This document shows positions 7,936-49,770 of a DNA stretch of 64,000 bases, piece after piece. This DNA comes from a virus, in IMG/VR virus record IMGVR_UViG_3300044911_002386, positions 103,812 to 167,811 of that record, one strand, 5' to 3'. The notes under the pieces were generated by a model that had not been told where the DNA came from, did not search any database, and was given only the letters and a program-made list of their open reading frames with translations. Both the position numbers and the translations under genes were made by a program. Each line of letters opens with the position of its first letter. Within the stretch, counting starts at the first letter, position 1.

Positions 7936-9779
7936 CGCGGTGTTCCTAAAAAGTTGCCGCCAAACCGCTCGATTGTTTGATCTACGATTGATGGCTGCGG
8001 CATATTGCCGTGAAAAGCCTGCAGGGCTAATTGATGGCGATAAGCCGGGTTAATAAACGCCTGATACGACTGATTATTCCGCTGGGCTTGCAGCATCCAG
8101 TCGCCCCGTCTTTTAATTTCAGCCATGTGATTACGGATGTTCTCAAACACAGGCTTCTGCATGTCATACGCGAAAGGACCGCGGCCAAATACCGAGTTCC
8201 GCAGTTCATTTAAATACACGCTGTTCGCCGCGGCTTTTACGCCAGCCGGAATAACGGTCGGATCTATGTGGAGCCTGAAATTCGTGGGCCGGTGGGTAAT
8301 GCCTTTGTATTTCGGCTTAGCGTCGTCGATTACCCAGTCATCAGGCGATTGTGCCATCAAGCGCCGAATGATCGCGGCCTTGTGGTCGTAGCGCTTGTTA
8401 TCCGAATGTTCTTTTGCCGCTAAAAGGTCTTTGAGGATTTCGGGCTGCGCGGCTTTCTCTATTTTTTCTTGCTTGTCGTAGTAGGCCGCGTCTTCGGACA
8501 AGTGATCCTTGGCAATTTCTTTGGCGATTTGATCGTTGTCGGTGTGCTCGTGCTCATGCCGTGTTCCCCTAGTTAATTCTTTTTTCAAAAACTTATTATC
8601 GGCCTTGCCGTCGGCTTCGCCACCAGATAACAGATCCGCCTGTTTCTGCTGGCTTTGCAGTTTTTGCAGTAGGGCCGAAAGGTCTTGCCCTGGTTTGTAT
8701 TTCAGCGTGCCCGGAAGTTTGTCATACGCCGCAATCGTGGGCGTGTGAAACTTATAGACAAGATCGGCAATACGCTTTTTTTCTTGCTCGACGTCCGGCG
8801 TCCATTTTTTTGCGGGGTCTTTTTCGTACCGCTGTTTTGTGCGGCTAAGGCGTTGTTCGTACGCCTGCTCGACAGGCGGGTTTACATGCACCCTTTTGTA
8901 TTTGCTTAAAATCTCAGGCGGAAGATACGACAGCTGCACACCCTCGACCACGGCGGGCCCGTCGTTTTTCTCCAACGTTTGCATAGCCGTTTGCCGCATC
9001 AGTGCCCGAAAGTCTTGTTCTTTGGGCGAGCCGGCTGGCAAATGATTATCCGGCGTATTGTCGTCAAGAAACTTTTGAAAATTGGGATCTTGATCGACCG
9101 ATACGCGCGGCAGTTTTAATTTTTCGGCTAGGGCTTTTGACAGCGTAGATTTGCCGGCCCCAGAATGCCCGCTTACGAGCACAACCTGGCTCGGGTCCGC
9201 GGCAGCGGCTTTGCGTACCTCATTGTCGCCGAGCACGTTCTTTTTTCGTACTGCGACCGTGATGTGAAACGGATGGCCCTTCGGCAGCGGCGACAATCCG
9301 TAACTCTTGCGAATTGCGGTTAAGCCGGGGCTCGAGACTTGCACGGCCCAAACTTTGCTTACGCCGCTAATGCCTCGGACGGTTATTTCTTTTAACGGCC
9401 CAAGTGTGTAGCCAAAGTTGTGGCCACGCTCATTGATCTTATCGGCACCCACCGACTGCACTTCGTCGGCAGTCATCACAGAAATATGGGCGTTCAAAAG
9501 ATCTGCGTCAACGTTGGGCACATTCATCGCGCCGGCCAACGGCAGTTCTGCCCCGGGCGCCACCAAGGCGTCAAATAATCCACGGACTAACGCGTTTGGC
9601 ACAGATAGCAGAAGCCATCCGCTTTTTGCCAGATACAAGCGGCCAGATAATGAATGATTTGCAGCCGTCTTTGTTCCCGTGCGGCCAAGCCAGCCAATGG
9701 CGTTGCCAAGCTGGTACACGGTTTGATCTTCCAACGATGTTTCCCACAACAGCGGATCAAGACTGAATAAGCTGTTCAT
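7932..9779 (-). CDS. 2H phosphoesterase-like + P-loop kinase + EHTD-motif fusion protein
   Basis: This 615-aa protein has three recognisable parts. Residues about 45-180 carry two H-x-(S/T) motifs, HIS at 98-100 and HIT at 172-174, the signature of 2H (LigT-like) phosphoesterases that act on cyclic or 2'-phosphate RNA ends. Residues 204-212 are a Walker A loop (GHSGAGKST) of a kinase-like P-loop domain reaching about residue 370. Residues 408-442 carry EHEHTDNDQIAKEIAKDHL, a motif I recall from a phage/bacterial DUF (DUF5661-type). Phosphoesterase plus kinase recalls RNA end-healing enzymes, so nucleic-acid repair is the leading inference. A tRNA gene lies directly upstream. The C-terminal 170 aa are unrecognised. 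Confidence 0.75.
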   Translation of the reverse strand: MNSLFSLDPLLWETSLEDQTVYQLGNAIGWLGRTGTKTAANHSLSGRLYLAKSGWLLLSVPNALVRGLFDALVAPGAELPLAGAMNVPNVDADLLNAHISVMTADEVQSVGADKINERGHNFGYTLGPLKEITVRGISGVSKVWAVQVSSPGLTAIRKSYGLSPLPKGHPFHITVAVRKKNVLGDNEVRKAAAADPSQVVLVSGHSGAGKSTLSKALAEKLKLPRVSVDQDPNFQKFLDDNTPDNHLPAGSPKEQDFRALMRQTAMQTLEKNDGPAVVEGVQLSYLPPEILSKYKRVHVNPPVEQAYEQRLSRTKQRYEKDPAKKWTPDVEQEKKRIADLVYKFHTPTIAAYDKLPGTLKYKPGQDLSALLQKLQSQQKQADLLSGGEADGKADNKFLKKELTRGTRHEHEHTDNDQIAKEIAKDHLSEDAAYYDKQEKIEKAAQPEILKDLLAAKEHSDNKRYDHKAAIIRRLMAQSPDDWVIDDAKPKYKGITHRPTNFRLHIDPTVIPAGVKAAANSVYLNELRNSVFGRGPFAYDMQKPVFENIRNHMAEIKRRGDWMLQAQRNNQSYQAFINPAYRHQLALQAFHGNMPQPSIVDQTIERFGGNFLGTPR

Positions 9780-34311: not shown

Positions 34312-34515
34312 TTACTTCGCCACCACGGTTTTTCTCAGATCGACAATTTGCTGCTGGAGGTGACCGATCTCCAGAAACAACTTGTCAATTAACTGCCGGT
34401 CACGTTCACTCCGATCAATCAACTGAAGGATAGCCCTAGTAGCCGTCATCGGTGTGTGCCGAGTGTGGCCCGTAATCACGTCCACACCGCACCACTCAAT
34501 CATATTGTTAGACAT
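34312..34515 (-). CDS. Small coiled-coil-like protein, 67 aa
   Basis: This 67-aa protein has a Cys-containing N-terminus and a heptad-rich C-terminal half (AILQLIDRSERDRQLIDKL). It is a single-gene unit: promoter at 34547-34580, AGGAG site, gene, strong terminator. Such isolated units in phages are often early takeover genes. The function is unknown. Confidence 0.65.
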   Translation of the reverse strand: MSNNMIEWCGVDVITGHTRHTPMTATRAILQLIDRSERDRQLIDKLFLEIGHLQQQIVDLRKTVVAK

Positions 34516-34546
34516 GCATATGTCTCCTGTGATGGTTAAGGGGCCT

Positions 34547-34580
34547 CATAACATATGCCAGGTTTTTACCCGTTATTTAA
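34547..34580 (-). promoter_or_regulatory. Phage promoter motif, copy P1
   Basis: On the minus strand TTAAATAA is followed by 13 nt, then GGCATATGTTATG. It matches the four-copy 34-bp motif (YTAAATAA, N13, GGCATATNTWATG). Read as sigma70-like, AAATAA and TATGTT are 17 bp apart. It lies just upstream of the 67-aa gene and just downstream of a terminator. Confidence 0.7.
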
Positions 34581-34593
34581 CTAATCGTTGATA

Positions 34594-34630
34594 GCTAAAA
34601 AAAGGGGTGAGCACACGTGACGCCCACCCC
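34594..34630 (-). terminator. Rho-independent terminator after 126-aa gene
   Basis: On the minus strand GGGGTG...CACCCC (34604-34630, one bulge) is followed by seven T and AGCTATCA. It ends the unit that holds the noncoding RNA candidate and the 126-aa gene. Confidence 0.75.
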
Positions 34631-34662
34631 AATCGAAGTTTAACCGCTTCGACGGCTGCCGC

Positions 34663-35043
34663 TTACGCGGACGGGATCTGCTCCAGGGCAGCTTCCACCC
34701 GGCGAAGATGCCGAAGCATCTCTTCCTTGCGGATCTCTGCCCGCCGCTCGGCGGCTGCGAGTTCGTTGGCAAGGATTTCGTGGTTCCGGCTGAGATTGAC
34801 GATATCCCGTTTGAGCTCGTCCATCTCGGCTGCGACGGCGTCACTGCCGAAAAGAATGGCCGCGCATCGTGCGAGGCGATGCACCGCGACTTCCGCCAGA
34901 TTGACGAAGTCGTGGCTACGCCGCCTTACGAATCCGATCGTCTCCTCGCGGCCGAAGACGTACGTTGCGACCCATATGGTCGCGAGCACCCACCACGCCA
35001 GGCACGCCATCGGGATCAGCGTATCGACAATCGACTCGACCAT
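34663..35043 (-). CDS. Membrane-anchored coiled-coil protein, 126 aa
   Basis: The ATG at 35043 has a GGAGGA site seven bases upstream. The protein has an N-terminal transmembrane helix (10-30) and a long charged helix (70-120) with heptad character. Its codons are visibly more G+C-rich in third positions than most neighbours, a possible sign of recent transfer. It is the only protein gene of the transcript that begins at the P2 promoter. Confidence 0.65.
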   Translation of the reverse strand: MVESIVDTLIPMACLAWWVLATIWVATYVFGREETIGFVRRRSHDFVNLAEVAVHRLARCAAILFGSDAVAAEMDELKRDIVNLSRNHEILANELAAAERRAEIRKEEMLRHLRRVEAALEQIPSA

Positions 35044-35095
35044 GGGATCGTCCTCCACAAGGCACCGAGCTAATCTGTTGTTAACGCACAACAGA

Positions 35096-35170
35096 GTCCG
35101 CTTTTGGGATTCGAACCCATAGCCCCACAGGTTGCCCTGCTGGCTCGCGGAAAGTTCCTGTACGGCAGAC
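35096..35170 (-). other. tRNA-like element at 3' end of RNA candidate
   Basis: This 75-nt segment has acceptor-like pairing GTCTGC/GCGGAC and a T-arm with loop TTCGAAT. No proper D-arm or anticodon arm is present; an internal CAGG-GCAA-CCTG or ACAGG/CCTGT stem takes that place. It resembles the tRNA-like domain of tmRNA more than a true tRNA. Confidence 0.5.
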
Positions 35171-35758
35171 TTACGTCCACCGCGTCGAGTTTCAAAACTT
35201 CGCTGGCGTGTAGGAATCCACGCTGCGCAAGTCCGTCCCTCGACTCCGATGTGAACAAGGTCTTACCCTTGCCGTGCGTTCCGCTAAAATTGATCGATTC
35301 AGCGTTCCGTGGGAACGACTTATGAACCGGCCACTTTAAACGGTGAATTCTGCGGAAGTACAGAATCCAGCACAATTTGCCAATGAGCACTCTTCGGTTC
35401 GACACCCCGTGGGAGTGACTTACGAACCTAGCTCACCAACAAACTCACGTTGCTCGTCACCGCATATAAGAAGCGGCAGCGGCTTCTGCCCGGCTTGTGA
35501 CCGGATACAGAACACCGCAGCGACGAACCGCCTACTAACTAACTTGCGTTAGCGTTCGGTACACAGGCGCTCTAGAACAGCACGCCCATGTCGGGAAAAA
35601 CGCTCTTGGCGTTTTCGCGGTGGTGATTCCTCACACACCCCATACACGAATTGTGCTTTAAGCCGCACAGCCTTGTATGACAGGCTAGGCCGTTGAGAGT
35701 TTCACTCAACCCCTCCCTTTTTAACGTGGCTAGGTCCCCCACGGATGACACCTAGGGT
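35096..35758 (-). ncRNA. Candidate large structured noncoding RNA with tRNA-like 3' end
   Basis: About 660 nt lie between promoter P2 and the 126-aa gene with no credible protein frame. The minus strand is rich in short perfect stems, for example GTTGAG/CTCAAC near 35699, AAAACGC/GCGTTTT near 35610, and CGTTCC/GGAACG near 35311. Two similar blocks start GGTTCGTAAGTC and GGTTCATAAGTC. The 3' end (35096-35170) looks tRNA-like: GTCTGC/GCGGAC ends, a TGGG-TTCGAAT-CCCA T-arm, and an internal CAGG-GCAA-CCTG hairpin. Size, phage setting and tRNA proximity recall the GOLLD and ROOL classes, but identity is not shown. Confidence 0.6.
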
Positions 35759-35763
35759 GCCCT

Positions 35764-35797
35764 CATTAGATATGCCGTGATTTATGCTGTTATTTAG
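35764..35797 (-). promoter_or_regulatory. Phage promoter motif, copy P2
   Basis: On the minus strand CTAAATAA, 13 nt, GGCATATCTAATG. It is nearly identical to P3. Expected transcription begins near 35757 and runs through the structured RNA candidate and the 126-aa gene. It lies 14 bp after the AGCTATCA tail of the preceding terminator. Confidence 0.75.
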
Positions 35798-35810
35798 ATA
35801 CCCGCTGATA

Positions 35811-35846
35811 GCTAAGAAAAACCGCAAGCGCGGGGCTTTCGCCCTG
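35811..35846 (-). terminator. Rho-independent terminator after 157-aa gene
   Basis: On the minus strand GCAGGGC-GAAA-GCCCCGC (35829-35846, one mismatch) and a second small CCGC-GCTT-GCGG stem lead into TTTTTC and AGCTATCAG. It terminates the 35877-36350 unit. Confidence 0.7.
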
Positions 35847-35876
35847 CAACTTTTGGTTTCTCCCGCAGCGGGCGGA

Positions 35877-36350
35877 TTAACGACCGAACTTGTCGATCGC
35901 CGCCGCCTTGGTGATCCGGTCCGCCATGATCACCGTGCCGACCTTGGTGAACATGGGCCAACCGCCCACAACCTCGTCGAGCACGTGGGCCTCGCGGAGC
36001 GCCTGCAGCAGCGGGAACGGAATCAAGATCAGATCCACGTCCCACGACTCCTGCAGGTCGGCGAGTGCCCGCATCACCACGTAGGTGAGCACGAACACCG
36101 GCTTCACCGCCATGACCGTACCGGCGACGTTGTGGAGAGGCCCAGCCCACGGCGTCTCCGCGTCTTTGCGGTCCATCGACAGCACCTTGCTCCGCTCCTC
36201 GTCGCAGGCCGGCAGAACCGACCCGTCGACGAAGTTGAAGGGGTGCGGCGAACTGAAGTTCGCCACCCTGAGCCCGTTGCTCAGGTTGATGACCGGGGCC
36301 TCGATCAGGGTGCCCAGAACGCCATCGGAAGAAAGGATGGTCGCGTTCAT
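35877..36350 (-). CDS. Hypothetical protein, 157 aa, G+C-rich cassette
   Basis: This soluble protein has beta-rich N-terminal and helical C-terminal parts and no recognised motif. It is a self-contained unit with promoter P3, a strong AAGGAGG ribosome site seven bases before the ATG, and its own terminator. Third codon positions are notably G+C-rich compared with nearby genes. The arrangement resembles a moron-type cassette gained by transfer. Confidence 0.65.
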   Translation of the reverse strand: MNATILSSDGVLGTLIEAPVINLSNGLRVANFSSPHPFNFVDGSVLPACDEERSKVLSMDRKDAETPWAGPLHNVAGTVMAVKPVFVLTYVVMRALADLQESWDVDLILIPFPLLQALREAHVLDEVVGGWPMFTKVGTVIMADRITKAAAIDKFGR

Positions 36351-36437
36351 ACTCTGCCCTCCTTAAGGCAAAGGCCGGATTCTGCCGGCACAGGATGTCA
36401 CCGCGTGTCAGTACACACCAACAGCTAACGGCTCCAT

Positions 36438-36471
36438 CATTAGATATGCCGTAATTTATGCTGTTATTTAG
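36438..36471 (-). promoter_or_regulatory. Phage promoter motif, copy P3
   Basis: On the minus strand CTAAATAA, 13 nt, GGCATATCTAATG. It leaves a leader of about 80 nt before the 157-aa gene. Together with P1, P2 and P4 it defines the motif. Confidence 0.75.
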
Positions 36472-36480
36472 CACTGCCTG

Positions 36481-36511
36481 ATAGCTAAAAAAGGGGCCCA
36501 AGGGCGGCCCC
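36481..36511 (-). terminator. Rho-independent terminator after 95-aa gene
   Basis: On the minus strand GGGGCC...GGCCCC (36493-36511) is followed by six T and AGCTATCAG. It ends the 37250-36520 gene pair and lies 10 bp before promoter P3. Confidence 0.8.
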
Positions 36512-37343: not shown

Positions 37344-37413
37344 CATTCTTTCAGGCAGCGGTTTATCGTAATAGGTTATCCCTTCCAGTCACTAGACGCG
37401 CGCATAAACAAGT

Positions 37414-37766
37414 GGACCCGGCGGGAGTCGAACCCGCGTCCGGAGAAGTGCCCAGTTAAAACATCTACGTGTGTATGCCATTATCTTTCACCAACGGCCA
37501 ATGCTATCCGCACACTTAGCGGAGTCACGTGGACTACCACGATCTCGTCCGATTACTTTGCCGGACCGACGCAAGTGACTTATCACTATCAGCCTGATTG
37601 GGCGATGAGGTCCAGGCAACCCCACAAGCCACCTAACCGAGGTCAGGCAGCGAGGGCCGGAGCATAAGCGCCAGCTAGAAACTTAATCGAGTTTTAACGC
37701 GGCCTCTCGATCAACCGCGACACGCAGTCAGAACCTTCTTCCTCCCGTCGATACCAGTACGGGCCC
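37414..37766 (-). ncRNA. ssrA: tmRNA
   Basis: This 353-nt RNA has a tmRNA 5' end (GGGCCCGTACTGGTATCGAC) pairing with a 3' end that includes CGGACGCGGGTTCGACTCCC; the acceptor ends pair over seven positions (GGGCCCG with CGGGTCC). CCA is not encoded. An internal frame at 37675-37643 reads AGAYAPALAA then TGA, or GAYAPALAA depending on the resume codon. The ALAA end is the classic degradation tag. It would rescue stalled ribosomes and tag products. Phage-coded tmRNAs are uncommon. Confidence 0.95.
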
Positions 37767-39433: not shown

Positions 39434-39504
39434 TAGCCCGCCGAGGAGTCGAACCCCGCGTTGCGAGTTAATAAGACTCGCTTGCCAACCGGTTTCCGCG
39501 GGCC
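39434..39504 (-). tRNA. tRNA, nominal anticodon UAU (Ile)
   Basis: The 71-nt gene has a good acceptor stem (GGCCCGC/GCGGGCT), a T-arm CGGGG-TTCGACT-CCTCG, and an anticodon stem CGAGT/ACTCG with loop CTTATTA, reading UAU. A T at position 37 and an ill-formed D-arm are unusual, so identity is tentative. Confidence 0.7.
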
Positions 39505-48084: not shown

Positions 48085-49770
48085 TCAACCTCCAAAGATA
48101 AATGACGGCCAGATTACTCTAGGCCCTGTAGCGCCCGTAACGCCTGACTCGCCGCCTGGTGTGCCCGGTGGACCTGACGGGCCTGTGCCCCCTGTATCGC
48201 CTTTAGGGCCAGTCGGACCTGACGGGCCTGTTTGCCCGACAGCGGCAATGACGCGTACGCCATTAATGAATACCGCTGAAGGATCTGTCGGATCGATAAC
48301 AACAGTCGGGCCAGGGCCTGTAACCCCAGTTACACCAGTCATACCGGTGACGCCGACACCAGTAGCGCCTGTAACGCCAGCGCCGGCTGGGCCTGTAACC
48401 CCAGTTACACCAGTCATACCGGTGACGCCGACACCAGAAACACCGGTTACGCCTGTTTCGCCGGGCATCCCTGGCACGCCTGACGGGCCGTCAAGACCTG
48501 TGACGCCAGTAGGCCCTTCAACACCGCTAAAACCTTGTAAACCAGATACGCCGGTTGCACCAATGTCACCGCTAGGACCTGTAGGCCCCGTGGGGCCAGT
48601 TAAACCAGGGCCACCTGTTGCACCTGTTGCACCCGTTACACCCGTTAAGCCGGTTACACCAGACGCACCAGTTGCACCCGTTTCGCCCGCTGGCCCGGTT
48701 AGGCCTGTAACACCAGTAAAACCGGCTGGCCCTGTAATGCCCGTAGACCCCTCCGGACCAGTAATGCCCGTGGCACCTGTGATGCCAGTAACCCCAGTGA
48801 CGCCTTTTGCACCAGAAGCGCCCGTTATACCGACGCCCGTAACACCTGTAACGCCAGTGATTCCGGTGATGCCCGTGACGCCAGTTAAGCCCGTAACGCC
48901 TGTGGGCCCGCGTGTGCCAGATATACCGGATATGCCTGTCGCACCTGTTAAGCCAGTAGCGCCCATCTGCCCGATACCGGTTGGGCCTGTAATGCCGGTG
49001 GGTCCAGCCGGACCAGTAACGCCTGAAAGCCCCTGAAAGCCTGACACGCCAGTAGGGCCCGTCATACCAGTTACACCGCTCGGACCCGCAGGGCCCGTTG
49101 GTCCAGTAACACCAGTGAACCCAGTAGCACCACTAGAGCCCTGGTCGCCTTTTCTGCCATCAAAACCAGTGGCACCGATGCTACCCGCAGGGCCGGTGAC
49201 GCCGGTAACGCCCGTTAAACCAGTAGCACCTGTCTGACCGGTTACACCAGAAATGCCAGTGACACCAGTTAAACCAGTTGCGCCGGCAGACCCAGTTACA
49301 CCAGTGACACCTGTAACACCCGTGACACCTTTTGTGCCTGTGACGCCGGTTACACCGGTCGTGCCGCCTGGGCCAGTAGAGCCTGTTACGCCAGTAATAC
49401 CGGCGGGCCCTGACAGGCCAGAAGCGCCTGTAACACCAGTGACACCTTTTGTGCCTGTGGGGCCAGTAACGCCCGTCATGCCACGACCACCGCCCGGACC
49501 CGTAGGCCCTGGTGGCCCGCTAGGGCCGGTAGCGCCAGCTAACTCTGCTGGCAGTTGCGTTGCCGGAACTTTGCCAGACGAATCTAATCCGGCTACACCG
49601 CCCGGCTGCCCTATTAAGGAAGTCGTAATTGCACTTACAAGATCCAGGATCGCGCCGAGCGTTGTCTTTTTTGTTGTCGGCGGCGAGACCTGCTGGTCAA
49701 CAATCGCAACTAAGTCGTCACGACTAGGGTTCGCCTTGCCGGGCAAATCCGATATGCGTTTTTGTGCCAT
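48085..49770 (-). CDS. Collagen-like tail fibre protein
   Basis: The first 85 residues resemble a phage tail N-terminal module ([20 protein letters not shown] and [11 protein letters not shown]), followed by more than 400 residues of Gly-X-Thr triplets ([12 protein letters not shown]-type) and a short C-terminal end. The 561-aa protein should trimerise as a collagen-like helix. Phage collagen fibres form stiff tail extensions. It has an extended -10 candidate upstream. Confidence 0.85.

Follow-up and report, generated by a model that had tools for sequence, protein, structure and literature searches.

The window analysed here, a stretch of 64,000 nucleotides, corresponds to positions 103812-167811 of a 167,811-base viral contig. 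The phage belongs to a group with genomes of approximately 200 kb and without a close cultured relative; in a comparison with 50,697 phage records, its helicase was closest to that of Salmonella phage Arash (33.5% identical). On the minus strand, genes for tRNA-Lys, tRNA-Leu, tRNA-Val and tRNA-Glu and for a tmRNA (Rfam, ARAGORN) surround a locus at which a promoter-like element, a long gene-free stretch, a gene for a small membrane protein and a terminator-like hairpin follow each other. Elsewhere in the window, a long collagen-like protein with GVTGVTG/GPTG repeats is found at 48085-49770, and a T-arm-like CGGGGTTCGACTCCTCG, possibly a decayed tRNA, lies outside the called tRNAs between tRNA-Val and tRNA-Glu (39440-39470; G000:143266, minus strand). 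The features of the locus are the following:

34598-34631, minus strand: terminator-like hairpin with T-run, closing the unit of RNA and membrane protein (direct sequence reading)
34663-35043, minus strand: small membrane/coiled-coil protein of 126 aa, sharing the transcription unit of the RNA
35092-35767, minus strand: large structured noncoding RNA, whole element with both ends predicted (fold z, no coding potential, no Rfam match, homologs)
35097-35151, minus strand: 3' tRNA-like domain, a UCCGC/GCGGA acceptor-like stem, a short arm and a T-arm (predicted fold, motif comparison)
35105-35119, minus strand: T-arm UGGG-UUCGAAU-CCCA within the 3' domain (standard T-loop)
35294-35330, minus strand: hairpin H2 copy B, GGUUCA-UAAGUC-GUUCC-CAC-GGAAC-GC-UGAAUC (sequence, covariation, covariance model)
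35394-35430, minus strand: hairpin H2 copy A, GGUUCG-UAAGUC-ACUCC-CAC-GGGGU-GU-CGAACC (sequence, covariation, covariance model)
35562-35590, minus strand: hairpin H1, a 9-bp stem with a G.A mismatch and the cap CUGUUCUAG (all four lineages)
35692-35711, minus strand: hairpin P2, GUUGAG-UGAAACU-CUCAAC (loop motif scan), not to be confused with the promoter, which had earlier been called P2
35713-35743, minus strand: 5' pseudoknot-like hairpin, CGUGG-GGGACCUAG-CCACG followed by UUAAAAAGG (comparison by eye)
35760-35813, minus strand: promoter-like element, AGCTATCA...TAAATA...GGCATATCTAATGAG, directly in front of the RNA and recurring
37412-37766, minus strand: tmRNA with the tag GAYAPALAA, part of the neighbouring tRNA/tmRNA island and located 1.6 kb upstream of the large RNA (Rfam and ARAGORN)

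The preliminary description of this DNA had noticed no believable gene at 35096-35758, and a dicodon model trained on the window phage's own long ORFs agrees: all ORFs of at least 30 aa within this interval obtained negative scores, and the only positive score (+9.4) belongs to a 41-aa ORF at 35702-35827, which straddles the promoter. The many stems that had been noticed there correspond to a fold much stronger than expected by chance. The RNA strand (681 nt) reaches -286.7 kcal/mol compared to a mean of -240.1 for its dinucleotide shuffles (z = -7.16; 0 of 20 shuffles as good), whereas the opposite strand of the RNA interval gives z = -3.13. For orientation, the tmRNA of the same phage has a fold z of -1.41.

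Comparison with Rfam 15 (cmscan) revealed no match in the RNA interval at E <= 10, with GOLLD, ROOL, HEARO, RNase P and group I/II introns among the models; three sub-threshold chance matches around the RNA all fall outside the interval. The search with the GOLLD, ROOL, HEARO, tmRNA and RNase P models, which the preliminary description had proposed, is thereby covered with zero matches, and the tmRNA model RF00023 found nothing within 34500-36000. In the relatives introduced below, the GOLLD and ROOL models were likewise unmatched, as in the window, at E <= 10 in G013 and G035 and at E <= 5 in G039. A literature search, mostly outside subscription papers, found no report of such an RNA beyond Rfam.

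Relatives were collected via the helicase, which yielded some 50 contigs from this phage group (labels such as G013 denote such contigs). Simple nucleotide comparison was of little help: BLASTN of the window RNA against the relatives returned two identical contigs and short chance matches only, and the RNAs of the window, G039 and G013, used as direct nucleotide queries, matched none of the 50,697 phage records. Nevertheless, homologous RNAs of about 0.5-1.0 kb were found in three further lineages, namely G013, G035 and G039/G040, so that the family comprises four independent lineages, with the G035 and G039 RNAs 89% identical to each other. In the G013 contig (205,010 bases), the same promoter precedes about 1.0 kb of gene-free sequence, located 1.9 kb downstream from the tmRNA; here, a fold-z scan of gene-free gaps supplied the candidates, and recognition was by motif and not by z alone. 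A scan of all viral contigs with the H2 motif returned only the window-type and G013 contigs plus G035 (205,188 bases). The H2 covariance model, built from four copies, then found G039 and G040 with E about 7e-7, neither of which had been used in building it. All homologous RNAs beat their shuffles, with fold z values of -10.30 (G013), -7.91 (G035) and -4.25 (G039).

The H2 motif is absent from 257 Gb of bacterial and archaeal contigs, and scanning the collection for H2 patterns gave, besides family members, a few chance matches in coding regions. Among the rejected candidates, a match to the pattern GTTCRTAAGTC in G027 lies inside a coding gene, and H2-like matches in the levivirus contigs L215-L217 and in L278 are chance matches in coding regions as well. 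A looser criterion (TAAGTC plus any stems) was dropped; because it performed no better than permuted motifs, we used the full motif and the covariance model.

The two related blocks of the preliminary description, 35394-35430 and 35294-35330, are real and turned out to be copies of one hairpin type, which consists of an outer stem, a UAAGUC internal loop, a 5-bp inner stem, a CAC triloop, G(U/C) and the returning outer stem. Copies A and B differ from each other by compensatory changes, and the hairpin occurs in all four lineages (window, G013, G035, G039/G040). In G013, TAAGTCGTACCCAAGGTACGCT differs from window copy B, TAAGTCGTTCCCACGGAACGCT, by one compensated pair and one triloop base and is otherwise identical. 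Across four copies from three lineages, 9 of 13 pairs show two-sided changes and 88.5% of the cells are paired; the alignment was made by hand and the structure derived from these very sequences, a procedure biased towards the structure. None of 500 shuffles reached any of five measures, and the signal was lost when the partners were slid against each other. The preliminary description, which proposed a large phage RNA, whether from a known class or from a new one, had named missing covariation or a protein frame as evidence to the contrary. The homologs covary, a protein-coding signal is absent and the named Rfam classes are unmatched, which supports the proposal.

Further elements recur in the family. 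Hairpin H1 shows two-sided changes at 4 of 12 pairs over the four lineages, with the cap consensus CUGYUYUAG. Hairpin P2 of G035 and G039 has the same 7-nt loop UGAAACU on an entirely different stem (GCCGA/UCGGC), and a P2 hairpin preceded by GUUAA was obtained from family members only in a scan of 3.1 Mb of family sequence. This GUUAA is the linker of the 5' pseudoknot-like hairpin and common to the window, G035 and G039. The loop CCU of the pseudoknot-like hairpin can pair with a downstream AGG; the corresponding pairing is CCUAU/AUAGG in G035 and weaker in the others. The region from the pseudoknot to P2 was compared by eye, as MAFFT misaligned it, and its loop motif was checked by scan. 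Both elements belong to three lineages (window, G035, G039/G040); in G013, neither of them was recognised, while H1 and H2 are present. The order pseudoknot-P2-H1-H2 is constant among the members. A two-sequence consensus of G035 and G039 comprises 147 pairs, 6 of them with two-sided changes, but it was fitted to those two sequences and is weak evidence.

The 3' end differs between the lineages. A tRNA-like 3' end had been noticed in the preliminary description, which holds insofar as a T-arm and a 5-bp acceptor-like stem exist; the domain is, however, not called as tRNA by ARAGORN or Rfam (RF00005), possesses these two parts only, and occurs in just two of the four lineages. Its counterpart in G013 (L070:13089-13142), also uncalled as tRNA, differs from it by two-sided changes in two acceptor pairs and one T-stem pair, as judged by eye. 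Elsewhere in the window phage, the T-arm motif GGTTCGANTCC is found in tRNA/tmRNA genes or an uncalled tRNA-like stretch; taking the window phage and G013 together, its other occurrences are tRNA/tmRNA genes, a few uncalled tRNA-like stretches and a few weaker variants. In G035 and G039 the domain is missing and a terminator ends the RNA.

The promoter that had been claimed in front of the RNA was recovered as an element at 35762-35813 with two conserved parts (AGCTATCA...TAAATA...GGCATATNTNATGAG), which recurs ahead of neighbouring units. Its copies in the window are located at 34545-34596, 35762-35813 and 36436-36495 and follow the pattern TAAATA...AAA...GGCATATNTNATGA. The same element stands ahead of the units in G013, G035 and G039. 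It is also found in relatives, often right behind the T-run of a terminator (TTTTTAGCTATCAGC). The suggestion that a whole unit is devoted to the RNA plus one small membrane protein is correct for the window phage, but the link is not conserved, as the RNA of G035/G039 follows an ORF of ~80 aa. The 126-aa membrane protein has no homolog among the relatives read and no match in Pfam or PHROGs.

The neighbourhood of the RNA module is fixed, with the tRNA/tmRNA island on one side and thioredoxin, p543 and helicase on the other. Within this frame its position varies. The RNAs of the window phage and of G013 are situated between the promoter and the ORF of the same unit. In G035 and G039, it lies between the stop codon of the ~80-aa ORF (M[SA]QLRNNPAV...) and the terminator at which it ends, and a different membrane-protein gene follows downstream on its own promoter. 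In G042 and G037, the ~80-aa ORF runs straight to the terminator without any RNA, and G026, with a similar gene order here, has other genes in the RNA's place; the positional equivalents in G026, G029 and G024 were rejected as homologs, consisting of other genes or repeats. A tmRNA match over the cut-off was obtained in 14 of 16 genomes tested, the exceptions being G040, a fragment of 35.5 kb, and G003, which is more distantly related. Since nearly all tested genomes possess the tmRNA, it belongs to the core, and the large RNA is accessory: it represents an exchangeable module beside the tRNA/tmRNA island that is absent from close relatives.

Several other stretches near this site deserve mention. 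A second structured RNA of ~356 nt, here called RNA-X, is closed by a covarying 25-bp helix and has two-sided changes at 22 of its 119 predicted pairs; it precedes the same operon in seven or more relatives (L272:269-630, L282:211-571, L294:95-460, L283:382-745, G035:55804-56159, G036:178941-179301 and G043:55298-55657) and is lacking in the window phage. In L272 and L283, Rfam gave no credible match for it. In G030, about 500 nt behind the same promoter class are gene-free and bounded by the closing helix TTGCACAGGCAGCGTCC/GGACGTTGCCTGTGCAA (8240-8770, plus strand), possibly another large RNA. G038 carries, at the site of the G035/G039 RNA, a different structured stretch (L283:1293-1645) with a T-arm-like CUGGG-UGCAAUU-CCCAG beside a CACCUC/GAGGUG stem. 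Near the tmRNA of G029 and G024, 0.5-0.8 kb of noncoding, degenerate short repeats (GACACGGCAGGCTTGG...) are located (G029:64915-65721, G024:64413-64895). Long imperfect inverted repeats (GACGTAACATATTG...CAATATGTTACGTC) stand directly behind terminators at the same site in L294:1050-1150, L282:1475-1565, L283:1655-1750 and L272:1697-1790.

By computation, then, the element has no coding signal, a strong predicted structure on this strand, a promoter-like element in front and covarying homologs with a shared helix order. We consider it probable that these features mark a large, autonomous ncRNA of phages that belongs to a family absent from Rfam and is comparable to GOLLD and ROOL without being a member of either. 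The RNA would be made as its own transcript or as part of one, fold into a multi-domain form and act in trans during infection; most likely, it would be a structural RNA of the GOLLD/ROOL kind, forming a multimer or serving as a partner of ribosomes or tRNAs. Where an ORF follows in the unit, i.e. in the window phage and G013, the 3' T-arm/acceptor-like domain probably punctuates the transcript, and RNase P/RNase Z or similar enzymes could free the RNA from the mRNA at this point. The arrangement in G035/G039, with the terminator directly after the RNA and the 3' tRNA-like domain missing, would fit such a role.

Other explanations have to be weighed against the autonomous RNA. One is a trans-acting anti-defence factor or translation decoy, whose tRNA-like and pseudoknot parts would titrate host nucleases, tRNA-binding factors or ribosome-rescue factors; varying host defences would then explain the sporadic presence. 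The exchangeable cargo position beside tRNAs and tmRNA, the T-arm domain and the stem/loop/GUUAAAA motif resembling PK1 of the phage's own tmRNA all point in this direction. However, G035 and G039 manage without the T-arm domain, and A-rich linkers are common to many pseudoknots, which means that the likeness to PK1 may be convergent, and we judge a decoy to be unlikely. Quite unlikely in our opinion is a very diverged GOLLD or ROOL beyond recognition by the Rfam models, which would build the same RNA cage. Size class, phage host, tRNA-island site and the variable presence and domains are shared with these families, and GOLLD can even carry a tRNA in its linker (PMC12286853), but permissive model searches remained unmatched in all four lineages. 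Furthermore, the conserved 3' domain of GOLLD should score, whereas in our case H1 and H2 sit mid-molecule and the 3' parts differ.

As a further alternative, the RNA could regulate the membrane-protein gene behind it in cis, as a leader of the riboswitch, attenuator or stability-element type. The RNA indeed lies between promoter and ORF in the window phage and G013, and structured 5' leaders occur at several units of these phages. A leader would keep one position; the RNA, in contrast, precedes an ORF in two lineages and follows one in the other two (G035/G039), where it ends at a terminator, and this placement argues against the explanation. In addition, the downstream gene of the window has no homolog in the relatives read, and usual leaders are far shorter than 0.5-1.0 kb, which together make a leader improbable. 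Finally, debris of tRNA/tmRNA genes or an intron-like mobile element without phage function could account for the place beside the island, the T-arm inside the element and its sporadic presence. Such material would hardly keep covarying helices across strongly diverged phages or a fold that beats shuffles in all members; moreover, no intron or other Rfam model matches, the flanking genes are uninterrupted and a promoter stands in front, so we regard this origin as extremely improbable.

Returning to the autonomous RNA, a wider and more tentative picture can be drawn from the site. It is conceivable, although we would not call it probable, that various large ornate RNAs, unrelated to each other (the present RNA, RNA-X, the ~500-nt RNA of G030 and the tRNA-like segment of G038), dock at the place beside the tRNA/tmRNA island and are swapped like defence or counter-defence cargo. 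Phage structural RNAs would then form a larger, uncharted set, with the present RNA as one of its classes and with some members freed from mRNA by tRNA-like 3' punctuation. Members with and without the tRNA-like 3' end offer a concrete, testable hypothesis on processing. To our knowledge, natural RNAs as large and complex as this one are very rare outside ribosomes and ribozymes.

Among known systems, a long RNA with a tRNA-like fold at its 3' boundary recalls transcripts of the MALAT1/mascRNA type; the mascRNA-menRNA match of the G013 domain (19.4 bits, below the cut-off of 42.5) concerns a eukaryotic family and should be read as an analogy, not as membership. With the tmRNA, the present RNA shares the stem/loop/stem followed by GUUAAAA, which resembles PK1 of the window phage's tmRNA, and, in two lineages, a T-arm near the 3' end. 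In contrast to tmRNA, it has no 5' acceptor/D-region, tag frame or RF00023 match, and a complete tmRNA is located 1.6 kb away. ROOL is a large ornate ncRNA of phages and prophages near tRNA islands, which forms an RNA-only multimeric cage (PMC12286853); the resemblance in size, setting and ornate fold is not accompanied by a ROOL model match. GOLLD, another large phage and prophage ncRNA with many representatives >800 nt, occurs sporadically and often near tRNA islands, sometimes contains a tRNA in its linker and was seen by cryo-EM as a closed RNA-only 14-mer cage (PMC12286853). The present RNA is similar in being a large phage ncRNA beside a tRNA island with conserved and variable parts and a sporadic distribution, but its recurrent elements are UAAGUC hairpins and the UGAAACU loop, without a match to the GOLLD model. 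Moreover, the 3' region of GOLLD is universally conserved and its 5' region variable, while the recurrent H1 and H2 of the present family occupy the middle of the molecule and the 3' parts vary from lineage to lineage. Membership in GOLLD or ROOL fails at the covariance-model match, the one defining feature open to a direct test. These two are closest in setting and form RNA-only cages of unknown purpose. An additional independent family from another phage group, in which close relatives lack the RNA at the same site, provides a natural comparison for the purpose of large phage RNAs.
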